Position numbers and translations under genes: made by a program | Notes under the pieces: model-generated | Told to the model about the DNA's origin: nothing | Databases searched by the model: none | The model's input: the letters and a program-made list of their open reading frames with translations, nothing else | Virus record (IMG/VR): IMGVR_UViG_3300031711_000017 | Span: 1 to 32,131 of that record | Source: a virus | Direction: 5' to 3' (one strand) | Length of the DNA stretch: 32,131 nt | Shown: in pieces, positions 8,319 to 31,395 of the stretch | Layout of the letters: every line of letters starts with the position of its first letter | Position numbering within the stretch: position 1 is the first letter of the stretch

Positions 8319-8561
8319 ATGGAATGGATTAGCGTTAAAGATGGACTTCCTCCTTTAAATAAGATCATTTTAGTTATAGATAAAGATAATGAAATGTGGG
8401 TAAGTGTATTAACAGAATGGAAAGATTTTCATGATAGAACGCGAATAGATTTTTTCTTAAAAACTACCGCTGAAACTTTTGGATGCTGTGGATGTGATGA
8501 TCCTTCTATAAGTGACGTAACTCACTGGATGTCATTACCACCAGAACCAAAGGAATCATAG
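8319..8561 (+). CDS. DUF551 protein, copy 1
   Basis: This 80-residue protein has the DUF551 signature at both ends: MEWISVKDGLPPLN at the start and VTHWMSLPPEP at the end. The family is common in phage early regions and has no established biochemical role. A CCGC cluster at residues 56-59 plus nearby Asp may bind metal. It is translated from AGGAG and is followed by two relatives, suggesting local duplication. Confidence 0.8.
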   Translation: MEWISVKDGLPPLNKIILVIDKDNEMWVSVLTEWKDFHDRTRIDFFLKTTAETFGCCGCDDPSISDVTHWMSLPPEPKES

Positions 8562-8588
8562 AAAGATCAATCTCAGTAAAGGAGATAT

Positions 8589-8978
8589 ATGTGCGGATGG
8601 TTCTCTGAGTGTGAAGCAGTAGAAAAAGTAAAAATACTCAGAAAAAGTTTGGAAAGGCTGGAAGAATATAAAGATTATTGGCATAAAGAATATAAAGATA
8701 TATGGGAATTGAGTTATAAACAGGGAATGGAAAACTGTCGATTACTTAAACAATTAGAATTATGCAAACAGGATCACAATAGTCTTTCTTGGATAAAAAC
8801 ATCTGATAAAAGACCAGAATATGGCCAAAAAGTTCTTGTTAAATGTCCTTATGGAGAATTAGAAACTGCTTTATATTGCCATGAAAGCAAACCGTATTTT
8901 TTGCTATATAGTAAATTAAAAATTTGCGCTTCTTTTATTTTCTACTGGATGCCATTACCTCCACAACCAAAGTATTAA
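8589..8978 (+). CDS. coiled coil fused to a DUF551 domain, copy 2
   Basis: The 129-residue product has residues 10-60 as a charged helix (EKVKILRKSLERLEEYKDYW), likely a coiled coil. From residue 67 comes a DUF551 domain: SWIKTSDKRPEYGQKVLVKCPYGE...FIFYWMPLPPQP. The usual initial MEWISVKDRLP is replaced by SWIKTSDKRP, so the helical part was added in front of the domain. The coil could give dimerisation. It has a good ribosome site (AAAGGAG). Confidence 0.75.
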   Translation: MCGWFSECEAVEKVKILRKSLERLEEYKDYWHKEYKDIWELSYKQGMENCRLLKQLELCKQDHNSLSWIKTSDKRPEYGQKVLVKCPYGELETALYCHESKPYFLLYSKLKICASFIFYWMPLPPQPKY

Positions 8979-8979
8979 C

Positions 8980-9237
8980 ATGGAATGGATCAGCGTTAAA
9001 GATCGGTTGCCAACAGATTCTTCATTTAAAAATGCATGTAAATATGACTACTGCTTGGTTTATGGAGAAAAGCAAAATGATTATGCAACTTCTCTTTATA
9101 GTATAGCTCAATATCGTGATGGCAAATGGGATATATTAAACGACGTAGGCGCTTCCTCATGCGAAGGATACTATGATTTATCTTCTGAAGAGGTAACGCA
9201 TTGGATGTTCTTGCGAAGTCCAGGGTATAAGGATTAA
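8980..9237 (+). CDS. DUF551 protein, copy 3
   Basis: The 85-residue protein begins MEWISVKDRLPTDSS and has EEVTHWMFL near the end, both family marks. Its ATG follows the previous stop directly (TAACATG) with no clear Shine-Dalgarno, so translation probably depends on coupling to copy 2. Two in-frame Cys (residues 20 and 25) and one near residue 65 are not shared with copy 1, so the central part evolves fast. Confidence 0.75.
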   Translation: MEWISVKDRLPTDSSFKNACKYDYCLVYGEKQNDYATSLYSIAQYRDGKWDILNDVGASSCEGYYDLSSEEVTHWMFLRSPGYKD

Positions 9238-14054: not shown

Positions 14055-14243
14055 ATGAACAGAATCAATGTTATGTTTACGGTCTATGCCGTTGAAGTAA
14101 TATTTGTGTTGTCCTTGTATGCACTTCTAGGCATCAATGCTATTCTGTGCGGCATGTTTATCTTACAACTCATGATGTTTATCAACGTAGACTTCTTTGA
14201 TGACATCATCCATGACGAAGAATGTGAAGATGAAACCACTTAA
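14055..14243 (+). CDS. small membrane protein, unknown
   Basis: The 62-residue product has two hydrophobic segments (residues 5-25 and 27-47) separated by GINA, then an acidic tail (FFDDIIHDEECEDETT). Its last 14 bases overlap the TerL start. Two-TM size would fit a holin-like or membrane-anchoring protein; nothing else supports that. Confidence 0.5.
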   Translation: MNRINVMFTVYAVEVIFVLSLYALLGINAILCGMFILQLMMFINVDFFDDIIHDEECEDETT

Positions 14244-15615
14244 CTCATTTGTTCCACGCCGTTATCAAGGCCCATTCTTTGATGCCATGGAATCGGGCAA
14301 ATATCGCCATGCAATCTTTATTGGTCCACGAAGACTTGGTAAAGACTATATGTGCTGGAACTTTGCCATTCGCTGGGCATTCAGACGTACCACTTCTGTA
14401 TTGTACTTGTTGCCTACCTATGGACAATGCCGTTCCGTAATATGGGATGCAATTTCTAATGATTCGACCCGTTTTTTAGATCTAATTCCGAAAGACAAGA
14501 TAGCTAATATAAACAGTTCTGAGATGAAGATCACGCTTGATAATGGCTCGCAAATACAACTACGTGGTGCCGACAACTTTGACCGTTCCATTGTAGGATC
14601 TAACGCTTCGCTTATTATCTTCAGTGAATATGCGATGTGTGACGAACGTGCCTATGAATATGCCTCACCCATTGTAGCCGCTAATGGGGGAACTATGATC
14701 TTCTTATCCACGCCTCGCGGGCGCAATCATCTATTCAAGTTATGGAATCAGGCACAGAAATGGCCAGACTGGTTCTGTTATAAGCTTACGCTGGATGATA
14801 CCAAGCATATAAGCCCCGAGGAACTTGAGCGTGAGAGACTCAAACATTCTGAGGAGTTTATCGCACAGGAATGGTTTTGTAGTTTTGATCGTGGTATTGA
14901 GGGATCGTTCTATGCGCGCTATATTACCGCTATGCAAGAAGATGGGCGCATTGGTCGCGTTCCTTATGATCCATCGTTACCAGTATTTACAGCATGGGAC
15001 TTAGGTTTCAATGACCAGACGGTTATCATACTCGGACAGATAACCAAGACCAATACGGTTAACATTATCGATTGTTATTACAATACCAACCAACCGCTCA
15101 ACCATTACATCAAATGGCTTCATGCACAGCAATATATCTACTCCAAGCACTTTGCTCCGCATGACATCGAAGTACATGACTACCAGACTGGCCAGACGCG
15201 TATCGAGATGGCACGTTCTTTAGGGCTTCATTTTGAAGTACGTGAAAGCAAAGGTAAGTTAATGAGCGCAACGCCACGCGTATCCGTTGCTGATGGTATA
15301 GAGCGTGTTATGGCCTCATTCTCCCGTATCTATATAGACCAATCCAGATGCAGTCGCCTCATAACTGCCCTCGAATCCTATCACCGTGAATGGGATGATG
15401 ATAAAAAAGTTTATAAACAACAACCGTATCATGATCAGCATAGTGACTTTGCAGATGCTTTTAGGGTATTATGTTTGACGCTCGATATGCACGGCACCGG
15501 TATGACACCCGAAGACGCACAACGCGAATACAATAAGACGATACATGGCACTGAAACCGGTTATGATAATCCATTTAGCAATGTGGGACATAAATTCCCC
15601 GGGAGATTCTTTTGA
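14230..15615 (+). CDS. terL: terminase large subunit (TerL)
   Basis: This 461-residue packaging motor has Walker A GPRRLGKD (residues 32-39) and the adenine-side QCRSVIWD region. Walker B is IIFSEYA at about 128-134, with Ser in place of the usual Asp before Glu, as in related phage terminases. The coupling motif is MIFLSTPRGRN at about 156-166. The C-terminal RNase H-like nuclease has AWDLGFND (about 254-261), the APHD segment near 310 and HSDFADAFRV (about 403-412). It binds the portal, pumps DNA and cuts the concatemer. The start at 14230 gives a normal N-terminus (MKPLNSFVPRRYQ); ATG 14197 is possible. Its stop overlaps the next start (TTGA). Confidence 0.95.
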   Translation: MKPLNSFVPRRYQGPFFDAMESGKYRHAIFIGPRRLGKDYMCWNFAIRWAFRRTTSVLYLLPTYGQCRSVIWDAISNDSTRFLDLIPKDKIANINSSEMKITLDNGSQIQLRGADNFDRSIVGSNASLIIFSEYAMCDERAYEYASPIVAANGGTMIFLSTPRGRNHLFKLWNQAQKWPDWFCYKLTLDDTKHISPEELERERLKHSEEFIAQEWFCSFDRGIEGSFYARYITAMQEDGRIGRVPYDPSLPVFTAWDLGFNDQTVIILGQITKTNTVNIIDCYYNTNQPLNHYIKWLHAQQYIYSKHFAPHDIEVHDYQTGQTRIEMARSLGLHFEVRESKGKLMSATPRVSVADGIERVMASFSRIYIDQSRCSRLITALESYHREWDDDKKVYKQQPYHDQHSDFADAFRVLCLTLDMHGTGMTPEDAQREYNKTIHGTETGYDNPFSNVGHKFPGRFF

Positions 15616-16103
15616 AAGACTTTTTTAATCCAGAAATAGTACTAGATATATTCACCAAATCACCTGGTTTACAGGCAACCCTTGGTAATAATGGTAAAAC
15701 ACCAACAGAAATTACGCGTGAAGAGATTGATAATGCCATCACTCGTATGTTTACCGATAGTCATTATACATTAAGTCATTATATGGTGTTTCCAAAGTTT
15801 TTGAGCGGACCTATAAGGTCAGACTTTGCGATGTATATTCATCCCGAGGTTCAACAAGATTTTGAATCTCTTCCGGGTTTCATTAAAAGAAGAGACTATC
15901 CTACGCGAGGATTTGAAGACGAACTAGGATGCATTGGTAATATGCGATTGTTTGTAAAAGATTATGTGCTTCAAGGTTTTGTAAAAGATTATGTGCTTCA
16001 AGGTGCTGACTTCTATCAATGTATTGTATTTGGTGGCCCTAAAGGCAAAAACTATGAATACGAAATGCCTGACTTCTTAAATATTTTAATAAGCAAACGA
16101 TAA
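15612..16103 (+). CDS. short paralogue of the major capsid protein
   Basis: The start is TTG at 15612, overlapping the TerL stop, six bases after GGGAG. The 163 residues align by eye with exon 3 of the capsid gene at 26176. PTEITREEIDNAITRMF matches PTELSRFDVDDAVTTLL, FLSGPIRSDFAMYIHPE matches FGTGPVRRAYFGLTHTD, and GFIKRRDYP...ELGCIGNMRLFV matches GFIHAANYP...EWGSIGSVRFLV. It lacks the N-terminal arm and first third of the capsid fold. A perfect 27-base tandem duplication repeats FVKDYVLQG at residues about 114-131. It may be a minor capsid subunit, an assembly regulator or a decaying copy; the frame is open and coupled to TerL. Confidence 0.65.
   Translation: MKDFFNPEIVLDIFTKSPGLQATLGNNGKTPTEITREEIDNAITRMFTDSHYTLSHYMVFPKFLSGPIRSDFAMYIHPEVQQDFESLPGFIKRRDYPTRGFEDELGCIGNMRLFVKDYVLQGFVKDYVLQGADFYQCIVFGGPKGKNYEYEMPDFLNILISKR
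15951..16004 (+). repeat. 27-bp perfect tandem duplication
   Basis: Bases 15951-15977 and 15978-16004 are identical and encode FVKDYVLQG twice, in frame. Perfect identity at all codon positions points to a recent slippage or duplication event within the capsid-paralogue gene. Confidence 0.95.
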
Positions 16104-16942: not shown

Positions 16943-19084
16943 ATGTCAACTTCCCCTTATTCTCAATTAGCTCCTCTTTATATGGATGAACAGCACCGAA
17001 ACGTTCTGCGGATGATGGAAACCGCGTATGAGCAATATATCTCTATCGGACAGACATATTGGTATGAGGCTAACCAGGACATAGAGTATTATGCGGGAAA
17101 CCAGTCTGCATGGTCTACCTCTTATGGGGTTGGCATTCCCGATTCTCGCAAGAAACAGTACACCTTTAACCGCATACGGCCCATTGTTAACAACATAGAT
17201 GGCCACCAACGACGTAACCGTAAGTCCTCAGTCGTTACTCCAATTGAGAATGGCGACTCGATGACTGCTGATCAGTTCACCAAGATACTGATGTGGATCA
17301 ACCAACAAGATGGTGTATATCATACCGTTTCTGATGCGTTTCTGGGTTCTTTAATTACTGGGATGACATTATTGCATACGTATATGGACTTCAGAGAAGA
17401 TCCAGTGAACGGTAATATCAAAACTGATGCTCTTGCGTTCAATGAGTTCCTTATCGACCCATTTTTCCGCAAGCAAGATCTTTCCGATTGTAACTATATT
17501 TGGAGGCGATCTTTTCTGACCAAACGAGAATGTATATCTTTATGTCCAGATCAAGAAGAGACGATCATGTCTCTTACCTCAAATACATCGGTAAATGGTC
17601 GTGATGCTAAGTTTCAATTTCTTCCTGAAACATACAATCCAGCAATTACAGATCTATTGACATACGATGAATATTATTACCGAGACTACCGTACCCAGCT
17701 TATGTTGGCTGACCGAGAAACCGGTGAAGTAATCGAATGGAAATCAAACGACAAGGAAAAACTTCGCTATATACTCCAGTCCAGTCCAAACATAGAGCTT
17801 ATCAAACAGGAGATACCAACCGTTAATATGGCACTTGTTATCCAAGGCAAGGTTGTATATTCCGGCCCAAATCCGTCGGGCAGTGATAAATATAATTTTG
17901 TGCCGGTATTCTGTTACTTTCATCCGGAGATGGTAGATTTTCCAAATAGAATACAAGGGATCGTTCGTGGGCTGCGTGATTCTCAGTACGTTTATAATCG
18001 TCGTAAAGTTATAGAGCTCGATATCCTAGAATCACAGCTGACCAGTGGATTCATTATGAAGGAAAACGCTATTGTTAACCCTAATGATGCGTATCTGACT
18101 GGCCAAGGGCGAACGATATTTGTCAAACAGAATGCCCAGATGGCAGACATACAACGCATTGAATCTCCAGCAATTCCACCAACAACGCTGCAAGTATCTG
18201 AGTATCTTGCTAAAGAGATGAACTATATCTCAGGTCTGTCTGAAGAGGCTATGGGTATGGCTGCTGATGATGTGCCGGGCATTCTTGCTATGGTGCGCAT
18301 GAAGTCTTCGGTTAACACTCTTGAAGGTATATTTGATCAACTTGATCGATCACAAGCACTGCTTGCTCGACTGCATATGGATATGATCCAGACAAACTTC
18401 ACGCCAGGAAAGATACAACGCATTCTTGAAGGGGAGCAACCGGCACCACAATTCTACAGTAAAGCATTTGGTAGATACCATGTTGCAATAGAAGATGGCT
18501 TGAATACTTCCACGCAACGTCAGATGCAGCTCGCTCAGATGGTTCAACTTAAAGCAGAAGCCGGTATTAACTTCAGCGAAGAGGACTTTATTGAAGCATC
18601 TACCTTACAGAACAAGAAGCGTATTCTTGATAATCTCGCGAAGCAGAAACAGGAAGCACAACAACTTGCCCAACAAGCACAACAGGCTGAGATGCAGGTC
18701 AAGGCTGCTCAAACCGAAGATCTTACTGCTCGCGCAGAGGCTAATCGTGGTCTTGCTATAGAGCGTGCATCACGGGTTGATGAGAACGAAGCCCTTGCCG
18801 TAGAACGAAGAGCTGCTGCCATCAAAGACCAGGATATGGGACTTCTCGCTCTGGTTAAGGCTATGAAGGAGATAGACACTGCTGATCTATCACACTTGGA
18901 GCAGTTGCTTGGTATACAGAATCTATTATCAGCGCGTCAATCACAACAAGATGAGATAAACAAGGACGTAACCGAGGATAAAAAAGCTGAAGCGATAGCG
19001 GCTGTATCCTCTAAATCGCGCAATCAACCCGAAGCGCAACCTGAGCAATCCCAAGTTGGCACGCAAGCCGGATTTATGGTATAG
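16943..19084 (+). CDS. portal protein, P22-like
   Basis: The 713 residues are close to the 725 of P22 portal. Early features are typical: YWYEANQDIEYYAGNQ, then KKQYTFNRIRPIVNNIDGHQRRNR (about residues 71-94), FNEFLIDPFFRKQDLSD and YIWRRSFLTKRE. The stem and crown region contains ISGLSEEAMGM near 430. Residues about 545-640 form a long Gln/Ala-rich coiled coil (AQQLAQQAQQAEMQVKAA), the barrel-like C-terminal part. A dodecamer forms the DNA channel at the capsid vertex and docks TerL and the tail adaptor. AAGGAG precedes the ATG, with a 6-bp hairpin (16903-16922) just before it. Confidence 0.9.
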   Translation: MSTSPYSQLAPLYMDEQHRNVLRMMETAYEQYISIGQTYWYEANQDIEYYAGNQSAWSTSYGVGIPDSRKKQYTFNRIRPIVNNIDGHQRRNRKSSVVTPIENGDSMTADQFTKILMWINQQDGVYHTVSDAFLGSLITGMTLLHTYMDFREDPVNGNIKTDALAFNEFLIDPFFRKQDLSDCNYIWRRSFLTKRECISLCPDQEETIMSLTSNTSVNGRDAKFQFLPETYNPAITDLLTYDEYYYRDYRTQLMLADRETGEVIEWKSNDKEKLRYILQSSPNIELIKQEIPTVNMALVIQGKVVYSGPNPSGSDKYNFVPVFCYFHPEMVDFPNRIQGIVRGLRDSQYVYNRRKVIELDILESQLTSGFIMKENAIVNPNDAYLTGQGRTIFVKQNAQMADIQRIESPAIPPTTLQVSEYLAKEMNYISGLSEEAMGMAADDVPGILAMVRMKSSVNTLEGIFDQLDRSQALLARLHMDMIQTNFTPGKIQRILEGEQPAPQFYSKAFGRYHVAIEDGLNTSTQRQMQLAQMVQLKAEAGINFSEEDFIEASTLQNKKRILDNLAKQKQEAQQLAQQAQQAEMQVKAAQTEDLTARAEANRGLAIERASRVDENEALAVERRAAAIKDQDMGLLALVKAMKEIDTADLSHLEQLLGIQNLLSARQSQQDEINKDVTEDKKAEAIAAVSSKSRNQPEAQPEQSQVGTQAGFMV

Positions 19085-25040: not shown

Positions 25041-25197
25041 ATGGCAATAACTACCACAACGAGCTTGCCTGCTCCTATTCAGGCCTCGTTTAATAAAAAG
25101 TTATTAGCAGTTCCCGTACCTAATTTCATATTCGCCATTCCTGCAATGAAGATGCAAATGCAGAGAAATGGTGGTACGACTGAACGCTGGAGACGAT
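25041..25197 (+). CDS. capsid gene exon 1
   Basis: This exon encodes the N-terminal arm, residues 1-52, plus one base. The start ATG follows GGAAAAGGC. The 5' splice site T at 25197 is the first base of an in-frame TAG that continues in the intron, so unspliced mRNA stops exactly at the boundary. Bases 25192-25197 (GACGAT) pair with the intron guide to make P1. Confidence 0.85.
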
Positions 25198-26823
25198 AGA
25201 ATTATGTCGTCTATATAAATCTTCTCTGATAGACTTGGAAGCCTTAGCGTAAATAGTGTCATAAAGGCACCAAGACGAAGGTAACAAGGGGCAAGATTAT
25301 GAAATGGATATCAATCAAAGATGGCTTTCCATCATATAGAGATCAATTAATACTAATATGGCATCCTGAATGTATTTTTTCCCCAGCAGATAAAGGACTA
25401 GATATGATCTCTTATTCTGGAGACTGTTTTAAATATTATGATAAAAATATTCTTGATGATAGATGTGAAGTCAAATATTGGATGTCCATTGATCAGCCTG
25501 AACGTAGCAAGCGAGAAGACTCACAATCATGTGAGATGCGGTGCTCTGAACATTGTGGAAACACAGTGAGGGATAAGTAGAGAAAGTCCCCGCCTTACTT
25601 TGCTAAAAGCTTCGTAAGGTCACAAAAGTAACAGATTGATAATCCATTACAACCAGCTTTAGTTCCACTTGGAAACTCTGGTATAACTCCACCGCCGCAA
25701 AATCTAACGGCTGTTGACATAGATGCTAAAATGAGTTTTTACGGAACTTACATAGCGATCAACGAGCAGGTTACTTTACAGAATCAGGACCCTAGACAAG
25801 CTATATTTGCATAATTGACGATGGCAGTAATATCTAAACGTAAAGCTGCTATTGAGTTACTACAATTTTGTGAAACGTTTAAGCAAATGCATGGAACTAA
25901 AGGTGTTTCAAGCGATGAATTGGCTTTACGTCAACAAAGTTATGAACTAATAATTGCATATAATAATGGGGTCGTTAAATCTCCTCTGATGGACTTAGAA
26001 CCCTTACCGGATAATGCCGGAGGCAATAAGGCGGAAGCAGCGAAAGCGTGCACCGTGAACGCAGTAAGCGAGGAGACGCCGAAGGGCGATGCGGTACTCT
26101 GAACTCTATGGAAACATAGAGAGGTAGGCTGAGAAGATCTACCCGCCTAGAAATAGGTCATTAAGTAACAGATTGGTATTAAACGAAGCTGCGATCCGTT
26201 TGGGTGTATCCCTTCGTCAAACAGAAGATCAGTTAACGTCAACCATGTTAGCCTCCACAGCCAGTTTCTTGAACTGTATTGGCGGATTTAACGGCGATGT
26301 TCCTACTGAACTATCACGTTTTGACGTTGATGATGCGGTTACTACGCTATTAGGCGCTAATGCTTATACGATCATGGACCAGATCCAAGGTGAAGACAGA
26401 TTTGGTACGGGCCCAGTTCGTAGGGCATACTTTGGTCTTACCCATACTGATATGGCGGGATCACAAGGATTAGATAACGTGCAAGGATTCATCCATGCCG
26501 CTAACTATCCTAACAACCGTAATGTCCTTGATTCTGAATGGGGATCAATCGGTTCCGTTCGCTTCTTAGTGTCCAGTATTGCTCCTACCTTCCAAGGTGG
26601 ATCTTCTATGGGCAATACCATCTATAACAACTTTATTATTGGTATGCAGTCTTATGGGATCGTTCATCAGGACGGTTATACGAGCACATTTGTCTATCGT
26701 CCCGCAATTTATTCAGGCCCATTGGCTCAGAACGTTACGGTAGGTTGGAAATCGGCTATGGTTCCTCGAATATTTAATGACCAATGGTTATTAAATTTAC
26801 GTTGCACATTGGCTAATGCATAA
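25041..26823 (+). CDS. major capsid protein, split by two group I introns (three exons)
   Basis: Joining 25041-25197, 25639-25793 and 26176-26823 gives one continuous 319-residue frame (52.3 + 51.7 codons, then 215 codons plus stop). Junction 1 reads WRR-Y-NPLQPALVPLG, and junction 2 reads LQNQDP-VLNEAAIRLG. The sequence fits N4-gp56-type HK97-fold coat proteins. It has an N-terminal arm (MAITTTTSLPAPIQASFNKKL) and a long spine region (GTYIAINEQVTLQNQ). A later block, GTGPVRRAYFGLTHTD to NYP..R.VLDSEWGSIGSVRFLVS, is the family's best-kept stretch. It forms the icosahedral shell with the scaffold (23007) and portal (16943). Without splicing only 52 residues would be made, so expression depends on ribozyme activity. 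Confidence 0.88.
25198..25638 (+). ncRNA. group I intron 1 in the capsid gene (441 nt)
   Basis: P1: exon GACGAT with guide GTCGTC (25206-25211), U.G at the splice site. P10: intron ATTAT (25201-25205) with exon 2 ATAAT. P3: TCTTCTC (25220-25226) with GAGAAGA (25513-25519). P7: G25504, bulged T, AGCA (25506-25509), with TGCTC (25542-25546). P8: CTCACA-ATCA-TGTGAG (25520-25535). P9: CATTGTG-GAAA-CACAGTG (25551-25568). The last base is G25638. Every helix has covarying counterparts in intron 2. A DUF551 ORF sits between the 5' helices and P7, probably in the P6 loop. The subgroup was not determined. Confidence 0.88.
25299..25580 (+). CDS. intron-encoded DUF551 protein
   Basis: The 93-residue ORF has AAGGGG seven bases before its ATG. 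MKWISIKDGFPSYRD at the start and VKYWMSIDQPE at about residues 59-69 are the DUF551 ends, so the domain is complete. The last 24 residues (ERSKREDSQSC...) are read from the ribozyme core (P7, P3, P8, P9) and look non-conserved. Homing introns normally carry an endonuclease; this one carries a copy of a gene family found at 8319-9237. It may be a passenger, a splicing helper or a replacement of a lost enzyme. Confidence 0.65.
   Translation: MKWISIKDGFPSYRDQLILIWHPECIFSPADKGLDMISYSGDCFKYYDKNILDDRCEVKYWMSIDQPERSKREDSQSCEMRCSEHCGNTVRDK
25639..25793 (+). CDS. capsid gene exon 2
   Basis: This 155-base exon encodes capsid residues 53-104 (NPLQPALVPLG, then FYGTYIAINEQVTLQNQDP). Its last six bases, GACCCT, pair with the guide of intron 2. 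Read-through into intron 2 meets TAA at 25812-25814. The exon is too short and start-less to be a gene alone, but its codons continue those of exons 1 and 3. Confidence 0.82.
25794..26175 (+). ncRNA. group I intron 2 in the capsid gene (382 nt)
   Basis: P1: exon GACCCT with guide GGGGTC (25968-25973), U.G at the splice site; the P1 loop is enlarged by about 170 bases. P3: TCTCCTC (25980-25986) with GAGGAGA (26070-26076). P7: G26061, bulged C, AGTA (26063-26066), with TACTC (26095-26099). P8: CGCC-GAAG-GGCG (26077-26088). P9: CTCTATG-GAAA-CATAGAG (26104-26121). Last base G26175. From the guide onwards it aligns with intron 1 (TAAATCT.CTCTGAT.GACTT, GATGCGGT.CTCTGAAC, AAGTAACAGATTG at the end), with paired changes in the helices. 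The guide differs, matching its own exon. Confidence 0.88.
25821..26102 (+). CDS. intron 2 ORF, unknown, runs through the ribozyme core
   Basis: The start ATG at 25821 (an in-frame TTG lies at 25815) is seven bases after the TAA that ends read-through from exon 2, so reinitiation on unspliced RNA is possible. The first 52 residues (ISKRKAAIELLQFCETFKQMHG, ELALRQQSYELIIAYNNG) look like a small helical protein and sit in the enlarged P1 loop. The last 40 (PLPDNAGGNKAEAAKACTVN...) are simply the P3-P8 ribozyme bases read as codons. It has no endonuclease motif. It may be a remnant or a new small protein. Confidence 0.45.
   Translation: MAVISKRKAAIELLQFCETFKQMHGTKGVSSDELALRQQSYELIIAYNNGVVKSPLMDLEPLPDNAGGNKAEAAKACTVNAVSEETPKGDAVL
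26176..26823 (+). CDS. capsid gene exon 3 (main body)
   Basis: This exon encodes capsid residues 105-319 and carries the shell core. SRFDVDDAVTTLLGANAYTI, FGTGPVRRAYFGLTHTD, and SEWGSIGSVRFLVSS are the regions shared with the short paralogue at 15612. The C-terminal part (FVYRPAIYSGPLAQNVTVGWKS) is typical of the end of N4-gp56-type coat proteins. A TTG at 26173 could be taken as a gene start, but there is no ribosome site and the frame joins exactly to exon 2. Confidence 0.88.
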   Translation, partial: VLNEAAIRLGVSLRQTEDQLTSTMLASTASFLNCIGGFNGDVPTELSRFDVDDAVTTLLGANAYTIMDQIQGEDRFGTGPVRRAYFGLTHTDMAGSQGLDNVQGFIHAANYPNNRNVLDSEWGSIGSVRFLVSSIAPTFQGGSSMGNTIYNNFIIGMQSYGIVHQDGYTSTFVYRPAIYSGPLAQNVTVGWKSAMVPRIFNDQWLLNLRCTLANA

Positions 26824-30726: not shown

Positions 30727-31395
30727 ATGTTTTCAATATATGGATTAAATGTGAATAAGATTTGTAAATTTTGTAATAAACCAATAACGGAATTAACAGC
30801 TGCATACAAATTGGGAAAGTTGAGAAATGAATGCAAGCCTTGTAGGTCTAAGATTAATGTTAAATACAAACAACTTACTGATGAACAAAAGTCAGTTCCT
30901 TGCGAATATTGCAATACGGGATGCATTAAAAAATTTTTTCGTGCTTTTTGTTCTGAAAAATGCAGATTTATGGGATTTGTAAAAAAAGAAGAAAATGGTT
31001 GTTGGATTTGGCAGGGAACTATTAAGCGAGATGGATATGGGGTTTTGATGGTCAATGGAATTTGGACAAGAGCTCATAGGCATTCTTATGAATTGTTTAA
31101 AAGGTATATTAAAAGAGCTATGCGCATATTGCACTCATGCCATAACACCAAATGCGTAAATCCTGATCATTTGAGAGAAGGCACTCCTAAAGAAAATAGT
31201 GAGGAAATGGTTGCTGCTTCACGGCAAGCAAAAGGAGAATCTTGTTCACTTTCTAAATTAAATAATCAACAAGTTATGGAAATACGAAAATTACGATCGC
31301 AGGGATTAAAAGTAAAAGAAATTTCTATGATTTTTAATATGACTATAGGTGCTATAAGCGATATTGTTAATTATAAAACATGGAAGCATATATAA
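30727..31395 (+). CDS. HNH homing endonuclease, free-standing
   Basis: The 222-residue product has two Cys-pair zinc fingers at residues about 13-39 and 59-79 (CKFC...CKPC; CEYC...CSEKC). The HNH core follows at about 92-155 (CWIWQG, DGYG, RAHRHSYE, CHNTKCVNPDHL, GTPKEN). The C-terminal HTH is at about 176-222 (KLNNQQVMEIRKLRSQGLKVKEISMIFNMTIGAISDIVN), which sets site specificity. It is the same family as the gene at the left edge. It sits between the adaptor and a tail gene, a typical spot for a mobile endonuclease gene. It could be the enzyme that moves nearby introns, but it is 4.5 kb from them. Confidence 0.88.
   Translation: MFSIYGLNVNKICKFCNKPITELTAAYKLGKLRNECKPCRSKINVKYKQLTDEQKSVPCEYCNTGCIKKFFRAFCSEKCRFMGFVKKEENGCWIWQGTIKRDGYGVLMVNGIWTRAHRHSYELFKRYIKRAMRILHSCHNTKCVNPDHLREGTPKENSEEMVAASRQAKGESCSLSKLNNQQVMEIRKLRSQGLKVKEISMIFNMTIGAISDIVNYKTWKHI

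Follow-up and report, generated by a model that had tools for sequence, protein, structure and literature searches.

How does a phage make its major capsid protein from a gene that no reading frame crosses? The question arises in a viral contig of 32,131 bases that lacks end repeats (IMG/VR record IMGVR_UViG_3300031711_000017; this whole stretch is called the window below), where 25041-26823, if left unspliced, is not open in any of the three forward frames. Very probably the capsid gene is split here by two group I introns of a single family outside Rfam, and the spliced product would be a coat protein of 319 residues. This reading draws on boundaries, core, covariation, empty sites, a nuclease remnant and family relations, all of them taken from sequence.

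A capsid gene in three exons

The gene can be divided as follows. Each part is defined by the joined frame and by a blind spliced alignment, and the introns also by a family covariance model (R1, described below) and by explicit helices.

25041-25197, forward strand: exon 1 of the capsid gene, codons 1-52 and the first base of codon 53
25198-25638, forward strand: group I intron 1, 441 nt, phase 1, ending in G
25639-25793, forward strand: exon 2, 155 nt
25794-26175, forward strand: group I intron 2, 382 nt, phase 0, ending in G
26176-26823, forward strand: exon 3, including the stop codon

Joined, the exons measure 960 nt and form an open frame of 319 codons plus stop. Our own spliced-alignment program, which received only the protein and the rule that an exon ends in T and an insert in G, placed the two inserts at precisely 25198-25638 (phase 1) and 25794-26175 (phase 0). 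The frame proposed in a preliminary description of the locus is thus borne out both by the exact join and by the blind recovery of all four boundaries. Residues 2-312 of the joined protein align with PHROG 1357, "major head protein" (E 2.8e-26), which upholds the assignment of the product as a capsid protein; the match to Pfam Phage_capsid_4 is weak, and identity to the coat proteins of named phages reaches about 25% at most.

Twenty-five relatives were found with the joined protein. In 13 of them the gene is uninterrupted; in the rest it either has interruptions, at differing positions, or is truncated where the contig ends. At the nucleotide level, an empty site was scored where 34 or more of the 48 bases spanning a joined junction were identical. 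By this threshold, uninterrupted alleles cover the first junction in 11 loci and the second in 36; a second scan added 80 further uninterrupted capsid genes among at least 544 loci. Both introns interrupt a gene that is uninterrupted in relatives, a property that counts toward group I membership. At the junctions these homologues match the joined exons, which supports the intron reading on a point where the preliminary description had laid it open to failure.

Anatomy of the two introns

The following elements, all on the forward strand, were placed in and beside intron 1; ORF stands for open reading frame.

25192-25197: exon strand of P1, GACGAT, pairing with the guide GTCGTC (25206-25211), U.G at the cut
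25220-25226: 5' strand of P3, pairing with 25513-25519; covarying in the family
25234-25237: 5' strand of P4, pairing with 25285-25288
25289-25292: 5' strand of P6, pairing with 25496-25499; an ORF lies within the P6 loop
25299-25580: 93-codon ORF of the P6 loop, continuing into the core; its start is like DUF551 proteins
25506-25509: 5' strand of P7 (AGCA), pairing with 25542-25545; extra G-C pair upstream across a bulged U
25520-25525: 5' strand of P8, pairing with 25530-25535
25551-25568: P9 hairpin

The corresponding elements of intron 2, on the same strand, are:

25836-25964 (approximate): C-terminal remnant of a LAGLIDADG endonuclease, before the guide, recognized by comparison with an ORF in the relative L014
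25968-25973: guide GGGGTC, pairing with exon bases GACCCT (25788-25793) in P1
25973-26100: core from P3 to P7, matched by model R1 (73.9 bits, E 1.3e-15)
26104-26121: P9 hairpin

In both introns P1 consists of six out of six possible pairs with U.G at the 5' splice site, and both end in AACAGATTG, hence with a terminal G. The helices P3, P4, P5, P6, P7 and P8, with the P3/P7 pseudoknot, occur in each, P5 of intron 2 being the weakest. The U.G pair, the terminal G and the P3, P7, P8 and P9 pairings given in the preliminary description are accordingly all present in both introns, and the P10 it reported for intron 1 (AUUAU with AUAAU) was recovered; a clear P10 exists in that intron only. P7 was corrected by alignment to relatives: a G-C pair precedes AGCA or AGTA, with one extra bulged base between. 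This pair, the guanosine-binding one beside the P7 bulge, is kept in both window introns and is followed by the extra bulged base.

Each intron would fold into a P3-P8 ribozyme core, with its guide paired to the last six bases of the upstream exon and U.G at the cut. Free guanosine would then cut at the 5' site, and the exons would be joined after the last G of the intron to give the 319-residue coat protein. The use of guanosine, like splicing in the cell, is what we infer from this anatomy.

A group I family outside Rfam

The motif ATTGACTTGGAAGCC occurs in at least 120 stretches of viral contigs, most of them with the same surroundings. From such material 35 compact cores, none from the window, were aligned, counting the group I core of P3, P4, P5, P6/P6a, the P7 pseudoknot and P8. 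Pairing holds in 98.9% of core cells, and 18 of the 30 pairs change on both sides, with 192 two-sided changes against 48 after shuffling. Covariation of the core, the P3/P7 pseudoknot included, is 0.572 against 0.180 for shuffled alignments, none of 500 shuffles being as high. Within the family, P7 is bulged; its outer pair covaries (A-U, G-C, C-G, U-A), and one G-C pair never changes.

The covariance model R1 was made from this alignment, with the window held out. Besides its match to intron 2, it recognizes the 5' half of intron 1 (about 30 bits, E 2e-4), the core of which is interrupted by the ORF. A sequence profile gives 41.4 bits for intron 1 with the ORF cut out and 43.8 bits for intron 2, against 3.9 for the best of 400 shuffles. 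The only R1 matches in the window's record are the two introns, and those matches in relatives' records that were placed lie within or beside the capsid gene. The common core noticed in the preliminary description is one core of one family, matched in both introns by the family model. At the level of sequence, both window introns are confirmed as group I introns of one family outside Rfam.

An assembly artefact, or a pair of unrelated inserted genes in place of introns, might be suspected in a metagenomic contig where each insert holds a small ORF. It is contradicted already by covariation, and a covarying RNA core with exact boundaries (T before the insert, G at its end) recurs in many independent contigs while relatives have empty sites; such an origin is extremely improbable.

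Several points nevertheless weigh against the reading as a whole. A cmscan of the window against Rfam, at the gathering score and at E up to 10, returned no group I match; the extra bulged P7 base of both introns is absent from the 35-member core alignment; P10 of intron 2 is weak; and the core tree used below, built from 159 distinct cores of about 130 nt each, carries no support values. Rfam was equally silent on nine relatives scanned with cmscan for group I introns, and a genome search with RF00028 alone gave no capsid-gene match and one weak match elsewhere in one relative's record. The preliminary description had counted the lack of a group I model hit as decisive against it. As a test this is not valid: in the same search the proven td intron of phage T4 scores 40.3 bits and nrdB 35.7 bits against RF00028, whose cut-off is 50. 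The Rfam group I seed is without whole subgroups (PMC11878797). Since RF00028 puts td and nrdB below its own cut-off and misses the present family entirely, a negative Rfam result says little.

The P7 bulge and the weak P10 of intron 2 do mean that one or both introns might splice poorly. In the extreme case, group I anatomy would have been kept and self-splicing lost, leaving the gene dead or dependent on a host or phage protein, and the lost nuclease of intron 2 would fit such decay. Yet the exons are open, conserved in frame and without stops, and the bulged P7 variant occurs in 12 of the 159 distinct capsid-gene cores, in other phages whose capsid exons are likewise open. Loss of self-splicing is therefore given a low probability, and two group I introns that can still splice are strongly preferred.

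A DNA search of named phages with the window introns gave short weak matches only. Two probable sister introns, both unannotated, were seen at MW202674.1 16877-17067 and OR420741.1 35071-35183, with 79% and 77% DNA identity, respectively, to a family member.

The introns are missed by gene finders and by Rfam alike, so that, to judge from databases, this phage clade seems to lack capsid genes or to have broken ones; the family model repairs this.

The capsid gene as a hotspot

The main home of the intron family appears to be the capsid gene in one clade of uncultured, podovirus-like phages. Spliced alignment of the relatives' loci gave clean frames and up to six insertions per capsid gene, as in L276 (codons 79, 88, 96, 104, 261 and 274). 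Across relatives there are about 40 insertion position labels, some of which may be alignment shifts of neighbours. Sixty-eight genes with 164 insertions were sampled, and in 64 of them the T and G boundary rule had no alignment-score cost; the mean cost of six alternative base rules was 23-33 points, with some cost in all 12 of 12 genes. Two introns in one coat gene had been called unusual. The two introns stand, but the rarity calls for caution: several per capsid gene are common in this clade, and a crAss-like capsid gene in five fragments has been published (PMC7886860).

In the core tree, intron 2 falls among the codon-104 introns of L014, L055 and L016. Intron 1 clusters with one intron at codon 223 (L072) and one at codon 79 (L005); the site of intron 1 itself was seen only in the window. 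The nearest neighbour sits at the same insertion site for 88 of the 159 cores (shuffled mean 21) and at another site for the others. This pattern suggests same-site inheritance or homing, together with moves to new sites. The preliminary description had the two introns related by duplication, and a local duplication within the capsid gene would agree with their common family and common P7 variant. The tree speaks otherwise. For both introns the closer relatives are in other phages, at the same site for intron 2 and at codons 223 and 79 for intron 1. The two introns are 1.33 apart, but only 0.14 and 0.37 from their nearest relatives. Duplication of one from the other is accordingly held to be quite unlikely, and separate arrival of two introns of one family is favoured.

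The cargo of the introns bears on how they may have arrived. Between the 5' splice site and the guide of intron 2, about 43 codons survive from the end of a LAGLIDADG endonuclease gene. At the same site L014 carries an apparently whole gene (Pfam LAGLIDADG_1, E 1.6e-10), to which the remnant is similar (BLASTP E 1e-8); the codon-104 intron of L016 has an ORF that is similar by eye. Intron 2 occupies a favoured site, codon 104, which it probably reached by LAGLIDADG-driven homing, most of the nuclease gene having since been lost. Intron 1 most likely came from another capsid-gene site, with a changed guide sequence. The start of its ORF resembles DUF551 proteins; copies of these are also encoded in the window, at 8319-9237. 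No intact homing endonuclease gene was found in the window introns, only the DUF551-like ORF in intron 1 and the LAGLIDADG tail in intron 2. The P6 loop seems to take up cargo, since different ORFs occupy it in L005 and L021. With up to six interruptions per gene and about 40 positions for one family, these phages offer a natural experiment on how introns reach new sites through a change of guide.

Two observations on cargo stand apart. The DUF551 copies of the window are three consecutive small genes, of which 8319-8561 and 8980-9237 match DUF551 and the middle one is similar by eye. In L021 (1808-2631) a codon-104 intron bears a probable LAGLIDADG ORF, judged by eye, on the opposite strand of the intron.

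Inserts without a core in related phages

Some relatives carry a second kind of interruption, which is too short to hold a P3-P8 core. The window lacks such an insert, to judge from the absence of any tail-helix-like pairing (see below) upstream of its introns (best 5 and 4 bp). Two sets were distinguished.

Codon 88, coreless inserts of 28-59 nt: L009 4216-4244, L020 5265-5299, L072, L079, L096, L144 and L232-L299
Codon 118, 4-nt inserts: L072, L112, L119 and L228-L231

The codon-88 inserts were found in 81 loci (61 distinct). A preceding T and a terminal G are present in 81 of 81, and the inserts are out of frame or stop-bearing. Most were found by a pattern that demanded the P1 hairpin TTACGGT..GTGCCGTA, so that P1 is not independent evidence for them; those of L009, L020, L043, L079 and L109 were found without it. 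Wherever enough sequence is stored, the next interruption is always a full intron at codon 96, 104 or 116, and in the remaining loci the alignment stops at or near one of these sites. A P10-type pairing with the next exon is seen as well: three bases of the insert match the first three of the exon in 51 of 55 cases, in the forms GGT/ACC, AGT/ACT, TGT/ACA or CGT/ACG, and the mean run is 4.4 against 3.5 in permutations (maximum 3.8). A covarying tail helix, with up to five pair types per position, ties the inserts to the next full intron and ends 7-8 nt before its 5' splice site. Minimum-energy folds of four such stretches place P1, the tail helix and the P1 of the next intron back to back.

The codon-118 inserts (TATG, TTCG or TACG) occur in seven loci, at the exact site of full introns in L016, L032, L055, L079 and L094, and a full intron follows at codon 144 in all seven. 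In each, the exon sequence GGCGGAGTT gives a P1 of 7 bp (ACUCCGU/GCGGAGU, with U.G at the cut), and this helix stops 7 nt short of the following 5' splice site. In a set of 67 uninterrupted genes the GGCGGAGTT codon trio is outside the ten commonest and seven pairs are reached in only one; coding constraint alone gives 5-6 P1 pairs in most of these genes, and the seven loci may share ancestry. P10 at these loci is short (2-3 bp) and unconvincing.

Both sets have the anatomy of an excision substrate, that is, splice-site pairing, a terminal G, no core of their own and a group I core elsewhere in the transcript. On these sequence features we consider it somewhat probable that the next full intron supplies the core that excises coreless inserts in cis, one ribozyme splicing two introns in order. 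The tie to that intron, with about the same moderate confidence, would be the covarying helix for codon-88 inserts and P1 itself for the 4-nt inserts. If so, the arrangement would be a natural counterpart of engineered excision-splicing, and the 4-nt insert possibly the smallest intron known. It would also become testable whether a self-splicing ribozyme can turn into a shared device for introns without a catalyst of their own. Proposals for how spliceosomal introns originated often include a step of this kind.

Translational bypass was considered separately. For the 28-59-nt inserts, ribosome hopping was rejected because the matched landing codon that it requires is missing: GGT is the take-off codon in all 55 cases, none of the inserts has GGN as its final triplet, and every case has an in-frame stop (54 within the insert). 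Frameshifting was rejected for the 4-nt inserts, where no conserved slippery sequence was seen and the insert varies (TATG, TTCG, TACG).

Inserts of 38-41 nt that likewise lack a core but have P1 and P10 were noticed at codon 81 (L051, L127) and codon 86 (L128, L134); the 3'-site helix of L051 and L127 forms locally and not beside the following intron.

Genomic context

The neighbourhood of the capsid gene in the window is podovirus-like, with a P22-type portal gene at 16943-19084 and the large terminase gene at 14197-15615. Directly after the latter, a small ORF (15612-16103) contains a tandem repeat (FVKDYVLQG twice). A free-standing HNH endonuclease gene (30727-31395) lies between probable tail genes. 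Of six coat-protein relatives in bacterial or archaeal genomes, three (L300, L302, L304) are on contigs that binning assigned to Chlamydiota genomes (Simkaniaceae, Parachlamydiaceae); this may point to the host of the phage clade or reflect binning errors.

Comparison with known systems

A literature search, with most subscription journals outside its reach, returned no paper on this intron family or on natural coreless inserts. The nearest published case is a crAss-like phage of the Zeta group, whose major capsid gene lies in five fragments with group I introns between them (PMC7886860). As in the window, several group I introns interrupt one capsid gene of an uncultured phage and the fragmentation hides its annotation. 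That case differs in that the phages are from the gut and the introns were inferred from encoded intron-type protein domains; its passages on these introns describe neither a shared RNA core family nor coreless inserts.

Mycobacteriophage LittleE and the lactococcal phage Tuc2009 have a group I-type intron in the capsid gene, and splicing of the LittleE intron was established by RT-PCR and protein sequencing (PMC3706429). The LittleE intron carries a LAGLIDADG-like ORF on the opposite strand, as also seems to be so in L021. These phages are unrelated to the present clade, with one intron per gene. The orf142 gene of phage Twort, which has three group I introns and a skippable exon of 23 nt (as described in PMC10136302), resembles the present family in its closely spaced related introns and the very short exon between them, but its introns are of group IA2 with full cores and its gene is not a capsid gene. 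The td and nrdB introns of T4 (group IA) are, like the present family, phage group I introns with homing endonucleases; they are found by RF00028, although below its cut-off, and not by R1, whereas for the present family the reverse holds.

The removal proposed for coreless inserts has its closest parallel in engineered trans excision-splicing ribozymes and spliceozymes, in which a group I core removes an internal coreless segment with the help of splice-site pairing (PMC6155759, PMC4094466). The phage inserts would need to be removed in the same manner. The engineered ribozymes act in trans, whereas the phage inserts are natural and lie on the same transcript as the core that presumably excises them.
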